From positions 1 to 62,512 of the forward strand of contig JAUNDP010000013.1 of assembly GCA_030526005.1 (NCBI GenBank): a stretch of DNA of 62,512 nucleotides, given 5' to 3'. The position numbers were made by a program, and so were the translations under genes. This DNA is from Eubacteriales bacterium (GTDB lineage Bacteria; Bacillota; Clostridia; Lachnospirales; Lachnospiraceae). This document shows, in pieces, positions 5,947 through 41,291 of the stretch. Numbering within the stretch: the first letter of the stretch is position 1; each line of letters begins with the position of its first letter. A model generated the notes under the pieces. The model searched no databases. It had not been told where the DNA came from and saw nothing but the letters and a program-made list of their open reading frames with translations.

Positions 5947-7779
5947 ATGACAAAAATTATTTATCCTTTTACTGCTATTGTTGGGCAGGAAAATTTGAAA
6001 ACAGCGCTTCTTTTAAATCTGATTAATCCTAAGATTGGAGGCGTGCTGATTTCAGGACAAAAGGGCACTGTGAAATCGACGGCTGTTCGAGCAGTGGCGA
6101 AATTGACAGATAAACAAGTGATTACACTGCCGCTTTCTGTGACAGAAGATAGACTGACTGGTTCCATAGATTTGGAAGCAACGATGAAAACTGGGAAATC
6201 TGTATTTTTGCCAGGAATTTTATCGCAAGCAGATGGACAGATTCTTTATATAGACGAAGTAAATCTTTTGCAGGATCATATTACAGATCTTGTTTTGTGC
6301 GCTCATTCAGCGAAAGAAAACAGAATAGAAAGAGAAGGCATTTCCTATAGTACTTCTTCAAATTTTATTTTGATAGGGACTATGAATCCAGAAGAAGGAC
6401 AGCTGCGCCAGCATTTTCTCGATCAGTTTGGTTTATGCGTGGTGACGGAGGCCGAAAATAATCTGGAACAGCGCGTAGCAATTACAAAAGCAAGAATAAC
6501 TTATGAAGAGAACCCAAAAAAATTTACTGCTTCTTATACGAAAGAGGAAAGTGAATTGAAAGAAAAGATTCTTCAGGCAACGAAGATTTTAACTCAAATT
6601 TGTATCAGAGAAGAAGAAAGATTTTACATTGTAAATAAATGCCTGGAAGCGAATGTACAGGGACATCGTGCCGACCTGATTTTGGAAGAAACAGCCAAAG
6701 CGATGGCGGCATGGAATGGACGACTGAAAGTGACAGAAGAAGACATTGACCGGGCAGCTGTTTTTGTTTTGCGGCATCGCTGTCAGAAAAAAGAAAAAGA
6801 GGAAACAGAGACTGGGCAGCAAAAACAAGAACAAAATAAAGATGAAACTCTGGAAGAAGAACAAAATATTTCATCGAATAAAGGAGAGAGTAAAGAAAGT
6901 CTTTCTTTTGAAAAATCAACTCAGGGATATGGAGGAGAGCGTACTTTTTCAGCAGGGAACTCTTTTAAAGTGACAGAATTTGGCCATCAGACTTCCAGAC
7001 AGATTCAAAAAGGGTTTGGAAAGCGGACGAATGCGAAAAGTGCAGGGAAAATGGGGCGTTATATTTATTCTGTTCAACAAAATCTAACAGGTGATCTTGC
7101 GTTGGATGCGACAATTCGGGCAGCAGCCCCTTATCAGCAGTCGCGTCCGAAAAATAATCTTGCTATTTCGATAAAAAAAGCAGATATTCGAGAGAAAGTA
7201 CGCCAAAGAAAATATGCGAATCTCCTTGTCTTTGTGGTAGATGCCAGTGGATCTATGGGGGCAAGTCAGAGAATGACAGAGACAAAAGGAGCAATTTTAT
7301 CCCTTTTGAAAGATGCTTATGTCAAAAGAGATAAAATTTGTCTTATTGCTTTCCGAGATCATGATGCGCAGATATTATTGCCTCCTACAAGAAGTATAGA
7401 ACGTGGAGCGCGTCTGCTGGAAACGATGGCTGTTGGAGGCAGAACACCGCTGAATGCTGGAATTTCAAGAGGAATACAAGTAATTCAAAGTGAATTAAAA
7501 AAGAATCCGAGTATCTTGCCTTATATGATCATGATCACAGATGGGAAGGGAAATGTCAGTATTGACAAAAAGACAAAGCCAAAGCAGGAACTGATGGAAA
7601 TCAGCGAAAAACTCCGCAATTTTGCATATATCAATACAATGGTTTTGGATATTGAACGAAAAGGTGCCATGAGCTTTGGGATCGCGAAAGAAATGGCAGG
7701 GCGTATGGGGGCAAGGTATGAAAAAATTGAAACATTAAAAAGCACCGCTATTATTAATGCAATAGAAAGGGTACGATAA
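5947..7779 (+). CDS. ChlD/BchD-like chelatase subunit: AAA+ domain fused to VWA domain
   Basis: A 610-residue member of the magnesium/cobalt chelatase AAA+ subunits. Residues 1-280 are an AAA+ module close to Chl[18 protein letters not shown] at the start, a P-loop GQKGTVKS (about residue 38), Walker [11 protein letters not shown] and sensor GTMNPEEG. Residues about 280-340 are a Glu/Lys/Gln-rich linker. Residues about 425-610 are a von Willebrand A domain with the MIDAS motif DASGS. The family bridges the ATPase ring and the large porphyrin-binding subunit. The P-loop carries Val where the next gene has Ala. In this family the D subunit often has a degenerate nucleotide site, but here it looks largely intact. 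It directly precedes chlI-like and cobN-like genes. Confidence 0.9.
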
Positions 7780-33087: not shown

Positions 33088-33162
33088 AAGAAATGAAAGA
33101 TGGGAAAAGACCTTGTCTTTTAAAGGAGAGTGTGCTATATTAAAAAAGAACAAAATAAAAAG

Positions 33163-33330
33163 TAACAGGTGCGAAAGTCGAATTGTCGACTGTAGTTAAA
33201 AGGGAAACAGGTGAAAATCCTGTGCGATCTCGTCACTGTAATCATGGAGCAAAAGATCAATATGCCACTGGGAAACTGGGAAGGTGATTTTTTGTGAGGA
33301 TATGTAAGTCAGGAGACCTGCCTGCTGCTG
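33163..33330 (+). promoter_or_regulatory. Cobalamin (B12) riboswitch
   Basis: The conserved elements appear in order: GGGAAACAGGTGAAAATCCT (33202 onward) with the following CTCGTCACTGTAA, then GCCACTGGGAAACTGGGAAGG (split: GCCACTGGG, AAACTGGGAAGG), and the B12 box AAGTCAGGAGACCTGCC at 33306-33322. It lies upstream of an exported CbiK-type gene and an ABC importer, so adenosylcobalamin or another corrinoid should repress that operon. Confidence 0.93.
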
Positions 33331-33349
33331 GTACGGAAACATGGTTTTC

Positions 33350-33447
33350 AGGTCACGAGTAATTGGCTGTACCGATAGAAATAGAGAATTTTTCATTCTG
33401 TTTTTATGTGACCTTTTGTCTTTGGACGAAAGGTCTTTCTTTTTCTT
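33350..33447 (+). terminator. Riboswitch expression platform: terminator with competing antiterminator
   Basis: The terminator hairpin is GACCTTTTGTC (33410-33420) with GACGAAAGGTC (33425-33435), then TTTCTTTTTC. An upstream segment AGGTCAC (33350-33356) is perfectly complementary to GTGACCT (33408-33414), which overlaps the 5' arm of the terminator. The two pairings exclude each other, as expected for transcriptional control by the riboswitch. Confidence 0.7.
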
Positions 33448-33564
33448 GGATTTTTTCAGGCAAAAGAAAATTGCGCAGGCGGCGTGGCGTCATGTTCCGG
33501 TCAATTCAAACTGGTGCAAAGCATCAGAATATAAAAAAAGTCGCATAGCGCAAAGGAGGAAAAA

Positions 33565-34449
33565 ATGAAAAAGAATGGAAAAGCAATGACAATGGCTGTG
33601 GCAATGGCAGCGCTGGCAATGGGAAGTCTGTCCGTCTGTGCGGAGGAAACAGCTGCAAAGGATCAGGCAATCTTAGTCGTAAGCTTTGGAACAAGCTACA
33701 ATGACAGCAGAGAGGTCACAATCGGAGGAATCGAAGGGGCGATTGAAGAAGCATTCCCGGAGTATGATGTAAGAAGAGCCTTCACAAGCCAGATTATCAT
33801 TGACAAGTTAGAAGAGCGCGACGGACTGGAGATTGACAATGTAGGAGAAGCGCTTGACAGAGCGGTGGAAGATGGTGTGAAAACATTGATTGTTCAGCCG
33901 ACTCATTTGATGGATGGACTGGAGTACAATGATGTAGTCGATGAGATCGCAGAATATGCAGACCAGTTTGAAAAAGTAGTGATCGGGGAGCCGCTTCTGA
34001 CAAGCGATGAAGACTTTAAAAATGTGGCAAAGGCAATCACAGAGGCGACAGCAGAATATGACGATGGAGAGAACGCAATCTGTTTCATGGGACATGGAAC
34101 AGAAGCAGAGTCAAATGAAGTTTATACAAAACTTCAGGATGTACTGACGGAAGAAGGATTTGAAAATTATTTTGTCGGTACCGTGGAGGCAGCGCCGACT
34201 CTGGAAGATGTTTTGAATCAGGTAAAAGAAGGCGAGTATAAAAAAGTAGTTCTGGAACCTTTGATGGTTGTCGCAGGAGATCATGCAAACAATGATATGG
34301 CAGGAGACGAAGAAGGTTCCTGGAAGACGGAGTTTGAAGCAGCTGGATACGAGGTGGAATGTCTGATCAAAGGACTGGGAGAAATGGAAACGATCCAGCA
34401 GATCTATGTGGATCATACAAAGAGCGCAATCGACAGTCTCTCTGAATAA
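33565..34449 (+). CDS. cbiK: Exported CbiK-type sirohydrochlorin cobaltochelatase
   Basis: A 294-residue CbiK-family class II chelatase preceded by a signal peptide (KAMTMAVAMAALAMGSLSVC, cleaved near CAEE). Active-site positions of Salmonella CbiK (His145, Glu175, His207) correspond to His177 in MGHGTE, Glu208 in VGTVEAAP and His240 in VVAGDHANND, at matching spacing. The normal enzyme is cytosolic and inserts Co2+ into sirohydrochlorin. Here it would act outside the membrane, as the periplasmic CbiK of Desulfovibrio does. No other cobalamin synthesis genes are nearby. It is the first gene behind a B12 riboswitch and is followed by a surface lipoprotein and an ABC importer. Inference: cobalt or tetrapyrrole capture and remodelling at the cell surface. 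Confidence 0.88.
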   Translation: MKKNGKAMTMAVAMAALAMGSLSVCAEETAAKDQAILVVSFGTSYNDSREVTIGGIEGAIEEAFPEYDVRRAFTSQIIIDKLEERDGLEIDNVGEALDRAVEDGVKTLIVQPTHLMDGLEYNDVVDEIAEYADQFEKVVIGEPLLTSDEDFKNVAKAITEATAEYDDGENAICFMGHGTEAESNEVYTKLQDVLTEEGFENYFVGTVEAAPTLEDVLNQVKEGEYKKVVLEPLMVVAGDHANNDMAGDEEGSWKTEFEAAGYEVECLIKGLGEMETIQQIYVDHTKSAIDSLSE

Positions 34450-34567
34450 TCAGCTTAAAAAGAGTTTCAGAAAGTTAGAACAGAAAATTGTATTAAAAAA
34501 ATAAGAAAAAACATTCAGAAACAGAAAAAAGTTTTTTGCTTTACGATGAAAAATAAAGGAACAGGAA

Positions 34568-34597
34568 AGGGATGCACGGCATAGTCTGTGCATCCCT
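34568..34597 (+). other. Intercistronic 10-bp hairpin
   Basis: A perfect stem AGGGATGCAC / GTGCATCCCT with a 10-nt loop, between cbiK and the next gene. There is no T-run, so it is more likely an mRNA stability or translation element than a terminator. A nominal ATG at 34572 falls inside the stem and is not used as the start here. Confidence 0.6.
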
Positions 34598-34607
34598 ATG
34601 TGGGTAT

Positions 34608-35483
34608 ATGAAGATGAAAAGATTTAAGATGACAGTAGTATCGCTTTTTCTTGCAGGATGCCTCGGCGCAGGATGCTATGCAGCTGAAACAGAAAACAGC
34701 CAGGTTGCTTCCCCGGAGGAGATGGCTCCGGCAGAAGATATCACAGAGGAGGGAATGGTTCCGATTGAAGGATCCCAGATCAAAGATGGAACGTACGAAA
34801 TCGAAGTGGATTCCAGTTCAAAAATGTTTCGGATTGTGGAATGTGAGCTGACTGTTAAAGATGGCAGCATGACGGCAGTGATGACAATGAGTGGGGATGG
34901 ATATTTAAAAGTATATATGGGAACCGGGGAGGAGGCAGTGGAAGCTTCTGAGGAAGAGTATATCGCTTTTAAAGAAGACAGCGAAGGACGCCAGACATAC
35001 GAAGTGCCGGTAGAAGCGCTTGACAAGGGTATTGACTGTGCAGCATGGAGTAAAAAGAAAGAAAAGTGGTATGACCGCACTCTCGTATTTCGTGCGGCTT
35101 CCTTGCCCCAGGAGGCAATCCATGATTCTGCTCTTACAAAGGCAGAAGATTTGAAGTTAGAAGACGGTTTCTATCAGGTCGATGTGGTTTTAGAAGGCGG
35201 ATCTGGAAAGACAACGGTGGAATCACCGGCAAAAATGCAGGTGGAAGATGGAAAAATTACAGCGCAGATTATATTCAGCAGTCCATATTATGACTATATG
35301 ATTGTGGATGAAGTGAAATATTTGCCGGTCAACACAGAAGGAAATTCAACATTTGAAATTCCTGTCACGGTATTTGACTGGAATATTGCAGTAACAGCAG
35401 ACACAGTGGCGATGAGCGCACCGCATGAGATTGATTATACACTGCACTTTGATTCTTCTTCCATCGAAAAGGAAGAAAAATAA
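34608..35483 (+). CDS. Surface lipoprotein with two beta-rich repeats (NEAT-like?)
   Basis: A 291-residue exported protein. The start at 34608 (or 34614) is chosen because MKMKRFKMTVVSLFLAGC gives a proper lipoprotein signal with lipobox LAGC. The mature part has an acidic spacer and two homologous domains: DGTYEIEVDSSSKMFRIVEC to RTLVFRAASLP (about residues 47-165) and DGFYQVDVVLEGGSGKTTVE to TLHFDSSS (about 185-285). The layout resembles clostridial cell-surface repeats and haem-binding NEAT domains, but the haem Tyr motif is not certain. Its position between cbiK and an SBP suggests a ligand-capture role. Its stop overlaps the next start (TAATG). Confidence 0.65.
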   Translation: MKMKRFKMTVVSLFLAGCLGAGCYAAETENSQVASPEEMAPAEDITEEGMVPIEGSQIKDGTYEIEVDSSSKMFRIVECELTVKDGSMTAVMTMSGDGYLKVYMGTGEEAVEASEEEYIAFKEDSEGRQTYEVPVEALDKGIDCAAWSKKKEKWYDRTLVFRAASLPQEAIHDSALTKAEDLKLEDGFYQVDVVLEGGSGKTTVESPAKMQVEDGKITAQIIFSSPYYDYMIVDEVKYLPVNTEGNSTFEIPVTVFDWNIAVTADTVAMSAPHEIDYTLHFDSSSIEKEEK

Positions 35484-36646
35484 TGAAGAGAGAAAGAAAG
35501 AAAAGAAATTATGCAGGAGCTGTTTTTTGCCTGGGTCTTATGGCAGTCTGTTCACAGGTGACAGCGATGGCTTCTGAAGAAGACAGACTGGAAACTGTTT
35601 CGTCTGAGCTTGTATATGAGAATACAATGGAACTGTCGTATGCCGATCAGTTTCAGGTAGATTACTATGAGGGCGGATATGCGCAGATTTCAATCGTGGA
35701 CGGAGATCAGTTCCTGGTGGTCCCGGAAGGGGCAAAAGTGCCGGAAGATCTGGACGAACAGATCACGGTTGTGCAGCAGCCAATACAAAATATTTATCTT
35801 GTCGCAACATCGGCAATGGATTTTTTTCGGGCGATCGATGGAATAGATCATATTCGGCTTTCGGGGACAGATATCGATGGATGGTATATTGAGGAGGCAA
35901 AGGAAGCTCTGGAAAATGGAGAAATGGTATATGCCGGAAAGTACAGCGCTCCTGATTATGAGCTCATTCTGGCAGAAAAATGCGGGCTTGCCATAGAATC
36001 AACGATGATCTATCATACGCCGGAAGTAAAAGAAAACCTGGAGAGTTTTGGAGTCCCTGTTTTGGTGGAACGCTCCAGTTATGAATCTCACCCGCTTGGC
36101 AGGATGGAGTGGATCAAATTGTACGGAGTACTGCTTGGAAAAGAAGATGTGGCAGAGAAGATCTTTGAAGAGCAGAAAAAGATGACAGAGGATATTTTGG
36201 GACAGGAAAATACAGGAAAAAGCGTTGCCTTTTTCTATATCAGTTCCGTGGGATATGCCAATGTCAGAAAATCCGATGATTATATTGCAAAGATGATCGA
36301 GCTGGCAGGAGGAAATTATATTTTTGAGGATCTGGGAGATTCAGAGAATGCACTTTCTACCATGAATATGCAGATGGAAGAATTTTATGCGCGCGCGAAA
36401 GATGCAGACTATATTATCTATAACAGCACGATTGACGGGGAACTTCAGACGATGGATGAACTTTTAGAAAAGAGCGCGCTTTTGAAAGATTTCAAGGCAG
36501 TCAAAGAAGGAAATGTATGGTGTACGGAGAAGAATCTGTTTCAGGAGACGACAGGTCTGGGGCAGATGATTGCGGATATCCATCAGATGCTGACGAGTGA
36601 GGATGAGCACTTAAAAGAGTTGTCTTATATGCACAGACTTCAGTAG
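35483..36646 (+). CDS. Exported ABC substrate-binding protein, FecB/BtuF-like
   Basis: A 387-residue binding protein with a signal peptide (AVFCLGLMAVCSQVTAMA, cleaved before SEED) and no lipobox. The mature protein has the class III fold typical of siderophore, haem or cobalamin binders, including LAEKCGLAIESTMIYHTPEV, MEWIKLYGVLLGKEDVAEKI and a helical backbone. It is longer than the binding protein at 3.1 kb. The ATG overlaps the preceding stop (TAATG), so expression is coupled to the lipoprotein. Under the cobalamin riboswitch the ligand is probably a corrinoid, cobalt chelate or related tetrapyrrole. Confidence 0.82.
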   Translation: MKRERKKRNYAGAVFCLGLMAVCSQVTAMASEEDRLETVSSELVYENTMELSYADQFQVDYYEGGYAQISIVDGDQFLVVPEGAKVPEDLDEQITVVQQPIQNIYLVATSAMDFFRAIDGIDHIRLSGTDIDGWYIEEAKEALENGEMVYAGKYSAPDYELILAEKCGLAIESTMIYHTPEVKENLESFGVPVLVERSSYESHPLGRMEWIKLYGVLLGKEDVAEKIFEEQKKMTEDILGQENTGKSVAFFYISSVGYANVRKSDDYIAKMIELAGGNYIFEDLGDSENALSTMNMQMEEFYARAKDADYIIYNSTIDGELQTMDELLEKSALLKDFKAVKEGNVWCTEKNLFQETTGLGQMIADIHQMLTSEDEHLKELSYMHRLQ

Positions 36647-36710
36647 AGGATAAGAATAGAGTCCACAGATTGAAATAAGAGCTGCAAGATCAGCAGCATG
36701 GGAGGAAAAA

Positions 36711-37727
36711 ATGGATAAAAAAGCACATCGCCGGTATGGATTTACTTTTTTGCTTTTAGGAGGATTGCTTATCTGTCTGCTCGTCTGGAATATCAACTCA
36801 GGCAGTGTGAAATTGTCTGTGAATGATATTTTTCGGATTCTCTTTTTTCATGAGGGAGATGAAACGGCATACAATATTATATGGGAAATCCGTATGCCCA
36901 GAATTCTGGCTGGAATTATTTTGGGCGGAGCATTATCTGTCTCAGGATTTCTGCTTCAGACATTTTTTTCAAATCCGATTGCAGGACCGTTTGTGCTTGG
37001 AATTTCGTCCGGCGCAAAGCTGATCGTCTCTCTTGTCATGATCGTCTGCCTGGAGCGGTCGATCGTAGCAGGATCAGGAATCTTGATTTTGGCGGCATTT
37101 GTGGGATCTTTGATCTGCATGGGATTTATTTTGCTGATTTCCAAGAAAGTCAAACGAATGTCGATGCTTGTGATCGGCGGCGTTATGATTGGCTATATTT
37201 GTTCGGCTGTCACAGACTTTGTCGTGACATTTGCAGATGACTCCAATATTGTCAATCTGCACAACTGGTCCATGGGAAGCTTTTCAGGAATTGCATGGGG
37301 AAATGTGGCAGTGATGGCCGCTGTTGTTCTCCCGACTCTGGCAGCTGTTTTTCTGATGTCAAAGCCGATCAGCGCATATCAGCTGGGAGAGGTATATGCA
37401 CAGAATATGGGGGTGAATATCAAAGTATTCCGAATTTTGCTGATTTTGCTCTCCAGCATTTTATCTGCATGTGTGACAGCATTTGCCGGTCCAATCTCAT
37501 TTGTGGGCATTGCAGTGCCGCACATTGTCAAAAATATTTTGAAGACGGCGAAACCGATTCTGGTGATTCCAGGATGTTTTTTGGGAGGCGCTGTATTTTG
37601 CTTGTTCTGTGATTTAATCGCAAGAACCGTTTTTGCACCGACAGAGTTAAGCATCAGTTCTGTCACAGCAGTATTTGGAGCGCCTGTAGTAATTTATATT
37701 ATGATACGGAGACAACAGAAAATATAA
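36711..37727 (+). CDS. ABC transporter permease, FecCD/BtuC family
   Basis: A 338-residue permease with about ten helices. Motifs are WEIRMPRILAGIILGGALSV, LQTFFSNPIAGPFVLGISSG and GPISFVGIAVPHIVKNI (ATPase-coupling region). It follows GGGAGG and precedes its ATPase by one base. Together with the upstream binding protein it forms a complete BtuCDF-type importer in the riboswitch-controlled operon. Confidence 0.93.
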   Translation: MDKKAHRRYGFTFLLLGGLLICLLVWNINSGSVKLSVNDIFRILFFHEGDETAYNIIWEIRMPRILAGIILGGALSVSGFLLQTFFSNPIAGPFVLGISSGAKLIVSLVMIVCLERSIVAGSGILILAAFVGSLICMGFILLISKKVKRMSMLVIGGVMIGYICSAVTDFVVTFADDSNIVNLHNWSMGSFSGIAWGNVAVMAAVVLPTLAAVFLMSKPISAYQLGEVYAQNMGVNIKVFRILLILLSSILSACVTAFAGPISFVGIAVPHIVKNILKTAKPILVIPGCFLGGAVFCLFCDLIARTVFAPTELSISSVTAVFGAPVVIYIMIRRQQKI

Positions 37728-37728
37728 G

Positions 37729-38829
37729 ATGAACAATTACTTTTTTTATACAGATAAAATGACAGTCGGATATGATGGAAAGCCGTTGATTAAAGAGATT
37801 GAAATGAAGGTCAGAAGAGGGGAGATTTTAACTTTGATCGGACCAAACGGCGCAGGAAAATCTACCATCTTGAAAAGTATCACAAGACAGCTGAAAACGA
37901 TAGCCGGAACCGTCTATCTGGACGGCAGAGTGATGAGACAGATGTCAGACAAAGAAGTCTCAAAAAGGCTGGCGGTTGTGTTGACGGAACGGATTCGGCC
38001 GGAACTTATGACTTGCGAGGAAGTAGTCGCAACGGGGAGATATCCCTATACCGGTCAGCTTGGAATCCTGTCAAAAAAAGATTGGGAAAAGGTCTGGGAA
38101 GCGATGCGTATTGTCTCAGCCGAAGATTTGAAGAAAAGAGATTTTGCGGCGATCAGCGATGGACAGCGCCAAAGGATTCTGCTGGCAAGAGCCATCTGCC
38201 AGGAACCGGAGATTATTATTCTGGATGAGCCGACTTCATTTTTAGATATCAAGCATAAACTGGAACTACTCACAATTTTGAAAAATATGGTCAGACAAAG
38301 CAGTGTGGCAGTGATTATGTCTTTGCATGAGCTGGATCTGGCACAGAAAGTTTCAGACCAAGTTGTCTGTGTTCACGGGGAATATATTGAAAAATATGGC
38401 ACGCCGGAGGAAATTTTTACTTCAGAATATATCCATAGATTGTATGGAGTGACAAGCGGAAGCTACAATGCAGACTTTGGATGCCTGGAGATGGAGGCGC
38501 CGCAGGGAAAACCGGAGGTGTTTGTCATTGCAGGAAATGGAAGCGGAATCAAAGAATACAGGAGACTGCAAAGGGCAGGCATTCCATTTGCAGCAGGAGT
38601 GCTCCACAAAAATGATATCGATTACGCAGTGGCAAAGACACTTGCATCCAGAGTGATCGCAGAAGAAGCATTTGAGGAAGTCAGCAAAGCGCACTATGAG
38701 GAAGCGTGGAGGGTCATGAAGGAGTGCAGAAGCGTAGTATGCTGCACACAGACATTCGGCACGATGAATCGAAGAAATGAAGCATTGATGAAAGAGGCGG
38801 AAAAGCTTGGCATTTTGAGAAAAGAATAA
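37729..38829 (+). CDS. ABC transporter ATP-binding protein with C-terminal extension
   Basis: A 366-residue ATPase. The first 250 residues are a normal FecE-like domain: Walker A GPNGAGKST (about 36), signature ISDGQRQRILLARAI (SDGQ rather than SGGQ), Walker B IIILDEPTSFLD and MSLHELD. Residues about 255-366 form an added Rossmann-like domain (PEVFVIAGNGSGIKEYRRLQ, AGIPFAAGVLHKNDIDYAVA, CRSVVCCTQTFGTMNRRNEA) of unknown role. Such extensions occur in some clostridial metal-chelate importers and may sense a ligand. It ends the operon before a terminator. Confidence 0.9.
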   Translation: MNNYFFYTDKMTVGYDGKPLIKEIEMKVRRGEILTLIGPNGAGKSTILKSITRQLKTIAGTVYLDGRVMRQMSDKEVSKRLAVVLTERIRPELMTCEEVVATGRYPYTGQLGILSKKDWEKVWEAMRIVSAEDLKKRDFAAISDGQRQRILLARAICQEPEIIILDEPTSFLDIKHKLELLTILKNMVRQSSVAVIMSLHELDLAQKVSDQVVCVHGEYIEKYGTPEEIFTSEYIHRLYGVTSGSYNADFGCLEMEAPQGKPEVFVIAGNGSGIKEYRRLQRAGIPFAAGVLHKNDIDYAVAKTLASRVIAEEAFEEVSKAHYEEAWRVMKECRSVVCCTQTFGTMNRRNEALMKEAEKLGILRKE

Positions 38830-38864
38830 AAACAGATAAAAATTTTTGTTTTTGACTGGAGGAG

Positions 38865-38897
38865 TCACAATCCCCCCCTGGGGGTTGTGATTTTTTT
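38865..38897 (+). terminator. Terminator of the cbiK-ABC operon
   Basis: Stem TCACAATCCCC / GGGGTTGTGA followed by seven T. Confidence 0.9.
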
Positions 38898-38967
38898 GGT
38901 TTTTTGGTAAAGTAGGAAAAAGTAAAAGCAGATAAAAAATAGAAAGATAAATAGGGTGAGACAGAAA

Positions 38968-39459: not shown

Positions 39460-39562
39460 GATGCAGGATGAAATATTCTATATCTGTCCGGCAGAATATT
39501 TAGACTAAAAAATGGATTTTTTAAATGAAATATGTTATGCTGAACATGTTCAGAAATGATAG

Positions 39563-39728
39563 CGTAACAAGTGATCTGTCCGTTGACAGAAGAAGAGGGA
39601 ATCAGGTGAAAATCCCGAACGATCCGGTCGCTGTAAACAGAGAGTCAGGCAAAAAACCATTGTGCAGCAAAGCGTGAGAAGGAATGTCATGACATAGATC
39701 TGTGAGTCAGGAAACCTGCTTGTTATGA
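39563..39728 (+). promoter_or_regulatory. Cobalamin riboswitch, second copy
   Basis: Shows GGGAATCAGGTGAAAATCCC (39598 onward) with CCGGTCGCTGTAA, then GCAGCAAAGCGTGAGAAGG, and the B12 box GAGTCAGGAAACCTGC near 39703-39719. The aptamer core looks intact, but the operon behind it is degenerate. No clear terminator/antiterminator pair remains downstream, probably because of the deletion that removed the first genes. Confidence 0.88.
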
Positions 39729-39804
39729 GAGATGAAGCTTCCGAGCAAGGCATTGCATCTAAAAAGTACAAATAAAAGAAAAGGATAGAACAGTACCTCT
39801 TTTT

Positions 39805-40494
39805 GTTGCTATTTCAGAAAAAATGGAATCTATTGGAGTGATGGCATTTATCGGCGCTTTTGGTATTTCCCTTGCAGTGGTGGCTCTTGCCAATATCGGA
39901 GGCAGAGCAAATTCAGTAAAATTGTTGCTTGCCGGTATGGCACTCAGTACGATGTGCTCTTCATTTTCAAATTTTATTGTTTATTTTGCAAATGACAAAG
40001 AAGGAATGCAGACGATTACCTACTGGCTGATGGGAAGTCTTGCCGGTGCAAGTTGGGAAAATTTGGCCGTTCTTCTTCCGATTGTACTGGCAGGCACCGT
40101 ATTTTTCTGGACACAGTACAGGACGTTAAATCTGATGCTTTTAGGAGATGAAACGTCCATTACGCTTGGCACAGATCTGCATAAGTAGAGACAGCTTTAC
40201 CTGCTTGTGTCATCTGCCATCATTGGATTTGTTGTGTATTCCTCTGGGATGATTGGATTTGTGGGACTTGTGATACCGCATATTGTGAGAATGATTGTAG
40301 GCACAGATCATAAGAGATTAATCTCTGTATGTGCGCTTGCAGGCACCATTTTTCTGATTTTGGCAGATGTGCTCTGCCGTATTGTGATTCGAGGGGCAGA
40401 GCTGCCAATCGGTATTCTGACTTCGATCATCGGAGCGCCATGTTTTATATATCTTATGACAAAGAGACGGTATGGATTTGGAGGAAAAGACTGA
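39805..40494 (+). pseudogene. Truncated FecCD-type ABC permease with in-frame TAG
   Basis: In-frame homology to FecCD permeases starts about 39805 (LFVAISEKMESIGVMAFIGA) without the first 110 or so residues, so the N-terminus and any upstream binding protein are missing. The rest is well preserved (YWLMGSLAGASWENLAVLL, IGFVGLVIPHIVRMIVG, GAELPIGILTSIIGAPC) but interrupted by TAG at 40186-40188. The stop overlaps the ATG of the next reading frame (TGATG). Riboswitch control is retained upstream. Confidence 0.82.
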
Positions 40495-41291
40495 TGCAGA
40501 TCAAAATAAAAGATTTGGGAATGATTTTGGGCGGCAGCCAGATTTTAAATTAGGTTCAGATTGAAATTTTGGACGGAGAGTTTGTAGGAATTATCGGACC
40601 GAATGGAAGTGGAAAAAGTACGCTTTTAAAATGTATTTATCGTGTCTTAAATCAGACAAGCGGCAGTATTTTATTAAATGGAAAAGATCTGCATTCTTAT
40701 CGAATCAAGGAGTATGCAAAAGAAATGGCAGTCGTGGCACAGCATAATTATTACAATTTTGATTTTTCTGTGCAGGATGTAGTATTGATGGGGCGCGCGC
40801 CTCATAAACGGGCGTTAGAGCGCGATAACAGAGAAGATTTTGAAATTGTCAGCGAGGCGCTTAAGAGAGTGGGAATGACTTCGTTTAAAGAGCGCAGTTT
40901 TTCGACGCTGTCAGGGGGAGAGTAGCAGCGTGTTCTGCTTGCAAGAGCGCTTGCTCAGAAAACGGAATGTCTGATCTTAGATGAGCCTACGAATCATCTT
41001 GATATCAAATATCAGCTTCAGCTGATGGATATCGTCAGTTCTTTAGAGATGACAGTGATCTCTGCTGTCCATGATTTAAATATTGCAGCCATGTACTGCG
41101 ATAAGATTTTTGTCGTCAAGAATGGAACGATTATCGCATATGGAGCGCCAGAGACAATTTTGACGAAACAATTTATAAAAGAGGTATATGAAGTAGACGC
41201 AGAGCTGTTTTGGGATCGAGACAGACAGCTTCATATTTTATATCAGCCTCAAAATGGCAGAAAGAGAAAACGAATGGGGAAAAGCAAATGA
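40494..41291 (+). pseudogene. FecE-type ABC ATPase with two in-frame TAG codons
   Basis: A full-length 265-residue ATPase frame from ATG 40494 to TGA 41289-41291, with Walker A GPNGSGKST, Walker B LILDEPTNHLD and AVHDLN intact. It is broken by TAG at 40551-40553 and TAG at 40923-40925. The second falls inside the signature, LSGGE-TAG-QRVLLARAL, where Gln is the rule, so CAG to TAG is the likely change. No frameshifts are present, implying recent inactivation or readthrough. Confidence 0.82.

Follow-up and report, generated by a model that had tools for sequence, protein, structure and literature searches.

Corrinoid producers that contain the chelatase CbiK are thought to import Co2+ and to insert the cobalt in the cytosol. 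One CbiK of Desulfovibrio, CbiKP (structure 2xvx), is presumably periplasmic, and we take FetB of Porphyromonas gingivalis to be exported, as would fit a role at the cell surface. BtuG and BtuH are surface lipoproteins of Bacteroidetes that bind B12. Passages of a review describe FetB as exchanging porphyrin metals and as serving porphyrin and haem metabolism (PMC13402209), and in Desulfovibrio, according to the portions of the study drawn on here, one B12 element governs both cbiK-cbiL and btuCDF, with no known cobalt transporters there (Rodionov 2004, PMC545781). Here we compare these systems with an operon found in a 62,512-nucleotide stretch of DNA (the window) from an Eubacteriales bacterium of the Lachnospiraceae, contig JAUNDP010000013.1. 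Rfam and Pfam searches confirmed what an initial annotation of this DNA had proposed, namely that a single cobalamin riboswitch stands over genes for an exported CbiK-family chelatase, a two-repeat lipoprotein, a substrate-binding protein (SBP), a FecCD-type permease and a FecE-type ATPase. As is argued below, the encoded proteins may load a tetrapyrrole with cobalt outside the cell before importing it.

Conservation of the module among Clostridia

To judge by gene order, the operon is a conserved clostridial module, carried by many Clostridia of the gut, and not a rarity of one genome. The loci compared were the 80 best matches to the exported CbiK (a set chosen by similarity, hence non-random) among at least 588 encoded relatives in named genomes. 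All five genes lie on the same strand in 65 of these 80 nearest relatives, which speaks against the view of the initial annotation that the arrangement is unusual; a NEAT domain is present in 79. Ten of the 15 loci that fall short of five genes end too early, and L081, L087, L093, L099 and L115 are without at least one part in the fetched DNA. For 75 loci the DNA ahead of CbiK extends to 400 nt or more, and 71 of these have a B12 box at most 1 kb before the gene; the background was none in 1500 shuffled sequences and four at other places in these loci (1.70 Mb, both strands). A covariance search confirmed the riboswitch in all four box-positive loci tested; in the four box-negative loci it gave no riboswitch at threshold, with a sub-threshold match in L101.

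Fusions of neighbouring genes recur in this set. Open reading frames joining CbiK to NEAT occur in seven different genomes (L096, L102, L103, L134, L141, L144 and L192), and those joining NEAT to the SBP in L058, L108 and L134; in L089, CbiK is fused to CbiK. The CbiK-NEAT and NEAT-SBP fusions suggest exported proteins working side by side in that order, and they argue for a putative relay from CbiK through NEAT and the SBP to the ATP-binding cassette (ABC) transporter. Ten further CbiK loci of Bacillota comprise nine of exported-like type and L193. RF00174 is present in all nine, and NEAT in two of them (L189, L192); eight adjoin FecCD/FecE-type importers, CbiL or other cob genes, while L188 ends just past CbiK. 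The layout is similar to that of Desulfovibrio, with cbiK-cbiL and btuCDF governed by a single B12 element. No RF00174 was found at L193, where CbiK lies inside a cbiMQO-cbi cluster.

The exported chelatase

The N-terminus of the window CbiK, read directly from the sequence, is signal-peptide-like, and none of the residues His177, Glu208 and His240 varies across 76 aligned sequences, so that the pairing of a signal peptide with a full set of metal ligands made in the initial annotation holds. An export signal was called in 78 of the 80 module CbiKs by a simple rule of hydrophobicity and lipobox (not SignalP), which flagged one fused protein, L152, wrongly; the remaining two are truncated by contig ends. 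A permissive pattern picks out a lipobox-like motif in 70 of the 80 relatives; the window protein itself has no good lipobox. CbiK as an enzyme of the anaerobic pathway is by definition cytosolic, and the module CbiK, with its predicted signal peptide or lipobox, departs from that definition.

By sequence, the PDB relatives of the window CbiK are FetB (9b86, the best), CbiK (1qgo) and 2xvx (putative chelatase). Against the NCBIfam equivalog SiroCoChCbiK it scores 250 bits, below the cut-off of 400, and the other CbiK of the same genome scores 264. Position 181, four past His177, is Ala in the window protein and in 79 of the 80 module CbiKs, and mostly His in other CbiKs. In a tree of 50 CbiK sequences, from which L152, L167 and L169 were omitted, the clostridial exported forms make up a clade of 32 (support 98/94), with the genome's second CbiK outside it. 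Exported forms are scattered over several places of this tree, which lacks FetB and CbiKP, and at least two changes are forced. The module CbiK would, we infer, insert Co2+ into sirohydrochlorin.

The tandem-NEAT lipoprotein and the importer

The lipoprotein probably starts at Met13 (34608) or Met15 (34614), and its LAGC lipobox was read directly. By fold, in the predicted model, it is made of two NEAT beta-sandwich repeats in tandem, in line with the comparison to NEAT domains that the initial annotation had called for. The Pfam NEAT score of 27.1-28.2 bits lies below the cut-off of 32.8, and 42 of 54 members of the lipoprotein family give a NEAT match at E 0.001; a sequence search against the PDB yielded nothing useful. 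The haem-ligating tyrosines of NEAT proteins are, we assume, those numbered Tyr166 in IsdA and Tyr642 in IsdH in their entry titles. The corresponding position maps to residue 283 of the lipoprotein, in a register taken from alignment end points, and is Ala there and Thr in 54 of 75 sequences, so that the protein appears to be without an evident haem-ligating tyrosine. Nearby, His285 is kept in 67 of 75 and Tyr289 in 73 of 75. His285 sits two residues off the haem-tyrosine position in this end-point register, and we do not claim it as a metal ligand.

The SBP model (predicted local distance difference test score 93.3) has a fold similar to those of proteins that bind iron complexes, haem or B12, and as a discriminator of B12 from haem binding it was discarded. 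The best NCBIfam match of the permease is BtuC (PRK03784) and that of the ATPase the corrinoid ABC ATPase PRK09536 (residues 11-348), both under cut-off. The C-terminal extension of FecE, of about 110 residues (window 38500-38829), falls largely within the PRK09536 model. A BtuC/BtuD-like permease and ATPase, a class III SBP and a B12 riboswitch together give a transporter of BtuFCD type that misses the equivalog cut-offs. Binding and transport of corrinoids by this importer is putative.

Link to corrinoid synthesis and a possible exchange of the chelatase

The initial annotation had also set the system apart from B12 synthesis, and this did not survive the survey. The fetched flanking DNA holds genes of the cob/cbi set, many labelled by phmmer with queries named by sight, at 44 of the 80 loci; among the 44 loci that span 14 kb or more, 30 have them. 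In 20 of the 80, the first gene recognised within 1.5 kb past FecE belongs to the cob/cbi set, and cbiD begins at most 50 nt after FecE in six (L082, L085, L111, L121, L123 and L127). Across 299 genomes of one family, a lipoprotein match was found in 110, termed NEAT-positive (any match at E 0.001, single-domain matches included), and CbiD in 170, made up of 106 of the 110 NEAT-positive genomes and 64 of the 189 NEAT-negative ones (Fisher p 5e-30). Furthermore, there are four to eight TP_methylases in 22 of the 23 genomes with long lipoprotein matches and one in the genome of the window; of the genomes reached through loci, 40 of 41 have at least three, and G524, of which 1.3 Mb was covered, has one. 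G119, among the 23, and G506, among the 41, appear to be one genome.

The chelatase was then counted in 41 carriers of the module, namely 23 of the 110 NEAT-positive genomes and 18 from the locus-derived set of 41. The module CbiK is the sole CbiK found in 32 of them (a hand count; export was judged by the N-terminus in most of them and by frame length in G079), while G205, with a split CbiK, and G003, in which no CbiK was found, are part of the 41 and excluded from the 32. No separate CbiX (PF01903) was found outside the CbiK genes of the 41 carriers, in a search that returned four CbiX positive controls at E ~1e-27. As controls we took 20 of the 64 CbiD-positive, NEAT-negative genomes. All 20 of these non-carrier producers have a CbiK without signal peptide; two were read from an internal start (G046, G019), two hold an additional CbiK-family match (G015, G024), and in three the cytosolic CbiK is fused, to CbiO (G028), to CbiH (G059) or, by sight, to CbiL (G008). 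The CbiO-CbiK fusion (L204, L258; G028) joins the ATPase of a cobalt importer to a cytosolic chelatase, which suggests a hand-over of metal. CbiM lies in the DNA around CbiK in nine of the 20 non-carrier producers. Among 28 cbi clusters of carriers, a single one includes it, that of G291, a genome with a second CbiK; the stretches compared differ in centring and length and cover, in the carriers, the DNA around the cbi genes. CbiM and CbiN were found in none of the 80 module flanks, to which that search was confined.

Operon layout and the genome of the window

The elements of the operon and its surroundings are collected in Table 1. The promoter-like site is weak alone (the pattern scan gave 15 sites against 12.3 expected in the region), and its placement is apt. 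The hairpin between aptamer and first gene is probably the expression platform of the riboswitch, while the stable hairpin ahead of the lipoprotein gene may possibly set the relative expression of cbiK and the NEAT gene. The decayed importer downstream contains in-frame stops, and its binding protein and the N-terminus of its permease are missing; at the corresponding place in G105 (L179), a genome of the same genus, where a GNAT gene is followed by a NUDIX gene, neither this remnant nor its riboswitch was seen.

Table 1. Features of the operon and of the adjoining DNA, in window coordinates
Feature	Position	Strand	Evidence
Promoter-like site (TTGTCT, 17 nt, TATATT, TG before second hexamer)	33113..33141	+	pattern scan
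Cobalamin riboswitch RF00174	33150..33339	+	Rfam 109.5 bits, E 1.6e-26, full model 1-189
Terminator-like hairpin then T-run, 11-pair stem, in gap between aptamer and first gene	33410..33435	+	pattern match
Exported CbiK-family class II chelatase, 294 aa, signal peptide ~1-26	33565..34449	+	Pfam CbiK 302.6 bits, E 2.9e-90
12-bp hairpin between cbiK and lipoprotein gene	34568..34597	+	-21.3 kcal/mol, z -3.18
Tandem-NEAT lipoprotein (predicted)	34614..35483 (mechanical open reading frame from 34572)	+	lipobox LAGC, Cys30
Class III SBP, exported	35483..36646	+	Pfam Peripla_BP_2 E 1.6e-29
FecCD/BtuC-type permease	36711..37727	+	Pfam FecCD E 8e-81
FecE/BtuD-type ATPase with C-terminal extension	37729..38829	+	Pfam ABC_tran
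Terminator-like hairpin past operon end	38856..38899	+	pattern match
Second cobalamin riboswitch, downstream neighbour of operon	39552..39737	+	89.8 bits
Decayed remnant of second FecCD/FecE importer	39763..41291	+	stop-to-stop reading, genes named by sight

The window is contig C9 of G000, a 2.51-Mb genome that is 95% complete. Its second CbiK is encoded on contig C50 and has no signal peptide. On the same contig, an orphan cobalamin riboswitch (6761-6962, L003) has hemA on one side and a malQ-like gene on the other. No corrinoid gene follows it, and it adjoins the divergent cytosolic cbiK; it looks like a scar left by the loss of a cbi operon. Three of the eight cobalamin riboswitches of G000 head what are, by sight, ABC transporters of the Opp/Dpp/Nik type (C48:10588, C19:135806 and C45:65859; L015, L016 and L017); these are odd in a genome with no visible corrin pathway and are candidates for the import of cobalt, cobalt chelates or corrinoids. 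At C10:37172-43283 (L014), two BtuFCD-looking importers, each headed by a riboswitch, stand on either side of an 1871-aa protein. The ratio of nonsynonymous to synonymous substitution rates (dN/dS) between G000 and G105 was set aside as a test of module decay: dS exceeds 1 (saturated), and the ratios are low throughout, for the cytosolic CbiK and HemA as well, so that what they show is past constraint on the proteins.

A possible function of the module and its alternatives

Cobalt loading before uptake, put forward in the initial annotation, is the leading reading here as well. Of its other points, the export of CbiK, the B12 link, the NEAT-like capture protein and the Desulfovibrio parallel have stood, and the rarity and the separation from synthesis have fallen away. 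We favour, at somewhat less than even confidence, a module that loads and imports a cobalt-carrying tetrapyrrole under the control of a B12 riboswitch. Gene order, the switch, export signals, fusions, the link with producers and the lack of another CbiK or CbiX in most carriers tested are features of the sequences themselves, to which a structure model adds the NEAT fold; the substrate, the direction of transfer, the insertion of cobalt outside the cell and the export of the ring are what we infer from them. A surface CbiK on the outer face of the membrane would insert Co2+ into a sirohydrochlorin-type ring, which would pass to the tandem-NEAT lipoprotein and on to the class III SBP, and FecCD/FecE would import the loaded ring for corrin synthesis. 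In most corrinoid-producing carriers the module would then replace the pair formed by the CbiMNQO cobalt importer and the cytosolic CbiK, the logic being to 'chelate outside and import the loaded ring' instead of to 'import Co2+ and chelate in the cytosol'. In G000, the intact module could be left over from a pathway since lost, or its substrate could be scavenged rings. A wider version is a possibility to which we give somewhat lower credence, namely that in many Clostridia sirohydrochlorin leaves the cell as a 'cobaltophore', is metallated by the surface CbiK and returns via NEAT, SBP and ABC importer, the NEAT domain having been adapted from haem to a cobalt ring.

A number of observations weigh against loading outside the cell. 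We know of no sirohydrochlorin exporter, and the Ala at CbiK position 181 makes an altered substrate or activity possible. Seven of the 41 carriers have a second, cytosolic-type CbiK match (G000, G105, G291, G048, G053, which is weak, G528 and G535, which is partial). SirC-type proteins (PF13241) occur in all four carriers examined; cobalt insertion activity is ascribed to CysG, and by analogy the SirC-type enzymes might act as cytosolic cobalt inserters. In L115 and L081 the exported CbiK and NEAT genes are followed by cbi genes with no importer in between, and in L115 (7037-9766, [Eubacterium] infirmum) they lead directly into cbiD and further cbi genes. Conversely, in L139 (4695-9405) and L143 (6388-9324) NEAT, SBP, FecCD and FecE occur without an adjoining CbiK: here, multi-NEAT proteins of 600-980 aa lead B12-boxed SBP-FecCD-FecE operons, and that of L143 continues with btuR-cbiD-cbiL. 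L250 (9161-10690, G008) is a hybrid arrangement, in which a cytosolic CbiK-CbiL fusion is followed by SBP-FecCD-FecE-cbiD. Finally, G000 itself is without CbiD, its sole TP_methylase is RsmI and no sign of a corrin-ring pathway was found in it, and yet its five module genes are intact and constrained relative to G105. A cbiK confined to a full cbi operon, which the initial annotation had thought would speak against its view, is not what this genome shows: the second, signal-less CbiK lies on another contig, in a genome with no visible corrin-ring pathway. Since the cbi and the hem/cobA genes of G105 are on two contigs, the absence of the pathway from G000 would reflect loss or, less likely, two assembly gaps.

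Several of these points would suit corrinoid scavenging, in which finished cobamides or cobinamide would be caught by a Gram-positive surface relay: the CbiK fold would act as a corrinoid binder with metal insertion dispensable, and NEAT and SBP would feed a BtuCD-type importer. The permease and ATPase have their best, below-cut-off matches in corrinoid transporters, the His at position 181 is lost, and related importers exist with no exported CbiK. Furthermore, G000 has CobS, with cobT, cobU and cobC around it by sight, so that use of scavenged corrinoids is possible there, and the operon of G171 (L141) continues into cobC (by sight), btuR and cobT. Pure scavenging was indeed our first reading, the window's own genome being without the pathway, and it was dropped on the producer statistics: scavenging should be commoner in auxotrophs, whereas NEAT-positive genomes are nearly all producers. 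The invariant metal ligands of CbiK and the 32 of 41 carriers with no second CbiK or CbiX also count against it. We think it less likely than not, though it stays a close second because of the pathway-less G000, the CbiK-less NEAT/importer variants, L250, L115 and L081, and the SirC-type enzymes.

The SirC-type proteins of the four carriers would suit plain cobalt capture, with the exported CbiK holding Co2+ or a cobalt complex, the importer taking up a cobalt chelate, and a cytosolic SirC/CysG-type enzyme metallating the ring; several cbi operons do hold the module where those of non-carriers hold CbiMNQO and CbiK. A chelatase fold would be an odd ion carrier, however, and the ligands for which NEAT domains and class III SBPs are generally known are tetrapyrroles and siderophores, not bare ions; we regard this explanation as unlikely. 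Acquisition or remodelling of haem or another porphyrin, in the manner of FetB or the staphylococcal Isd system, was considered at first on account of the NEAT fold and of FetB (9b86) as closest PDB relative, an enzyme of porphyrin metal exchange in the passages of the review cited (PMC13402209). The B12 switch and the cob/cbi genes nearby led us to set it aside, and with no tyrosine at the presumed haem-ligand position of the lipoprotein we regard it as very improbable.

Should extracellular loading hold true, the only detected class II chelatase would lie outside the cell in a widespread group, and the accepted picture of how anaerobic B12 synthesis is arranged in the cell would change. It would also suggest how producers get their cobalt when no CbiMNQO lies close to their cbi genes, widen the range of NEAT relays past haem and bear on corrinoid exchange in the gut. 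Pathway reconstructions such as PMC6593275, in the parts consulted, count CbiK/CbiX as a pathway gene regardless of location; for such counts, location would matter.

Comparison with known systems

A search of the open-access literature, through titles and the openings of abstracts, returned no description of an exported CbiK with a NEAT partner. The nearest precedents are the cbiK-cbiL-btuCDF system of Desulfovibrio and FetB of P. gingivalis. The former was rightly invoked as a parallel in the initial annotation: CbiK and a BtuCDF importer there share one B12 element, the differences being a Gram-negative host, an adjoining CbiL and, in the portions of the study drawn on, no mention of a NEAT lipoprotein (PMC545781). 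In three of the Bacillota genomes (G471, G327 and G382), an exported-like CbiK and CbiL lie under RF00174, with another BtuFCD-type importer in G471 and G327. FetB (IhtB) belongs to the CbiK family, is presumably exported like the module protein and is the closest PDB sequence to the window CbiK; to our knowledge, neither a B12 switch nor a NEAT partner accompanies it.

The Isd relay (IsdB, IsdH, IsdX1 and IsdDEF) shares with the module the NEAT fold and a hand-over to a class III SBP and FecCD-type permease, while the module differs in being B12-switched, in having a chelatase in front and in carrying another residue at the presumed haem-ligand position. BtuG and BtuH likewise represent B12-switched surface capture feeding BtuCDF; they are outer-membrane proteins of Gram-negatives, however, and involve neither CbiK nor NEAT. 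Finally, CbiMNQO with a cytosolic CbiK relies on the same enzyme family and fills the same slot in some cbi operons, whereas the chelatase of the module is predicted to lie outside the cell, and its importer is of the tetrapyrrole/siderophore type rather than an energy-coupling factor (ECF) ion importer.

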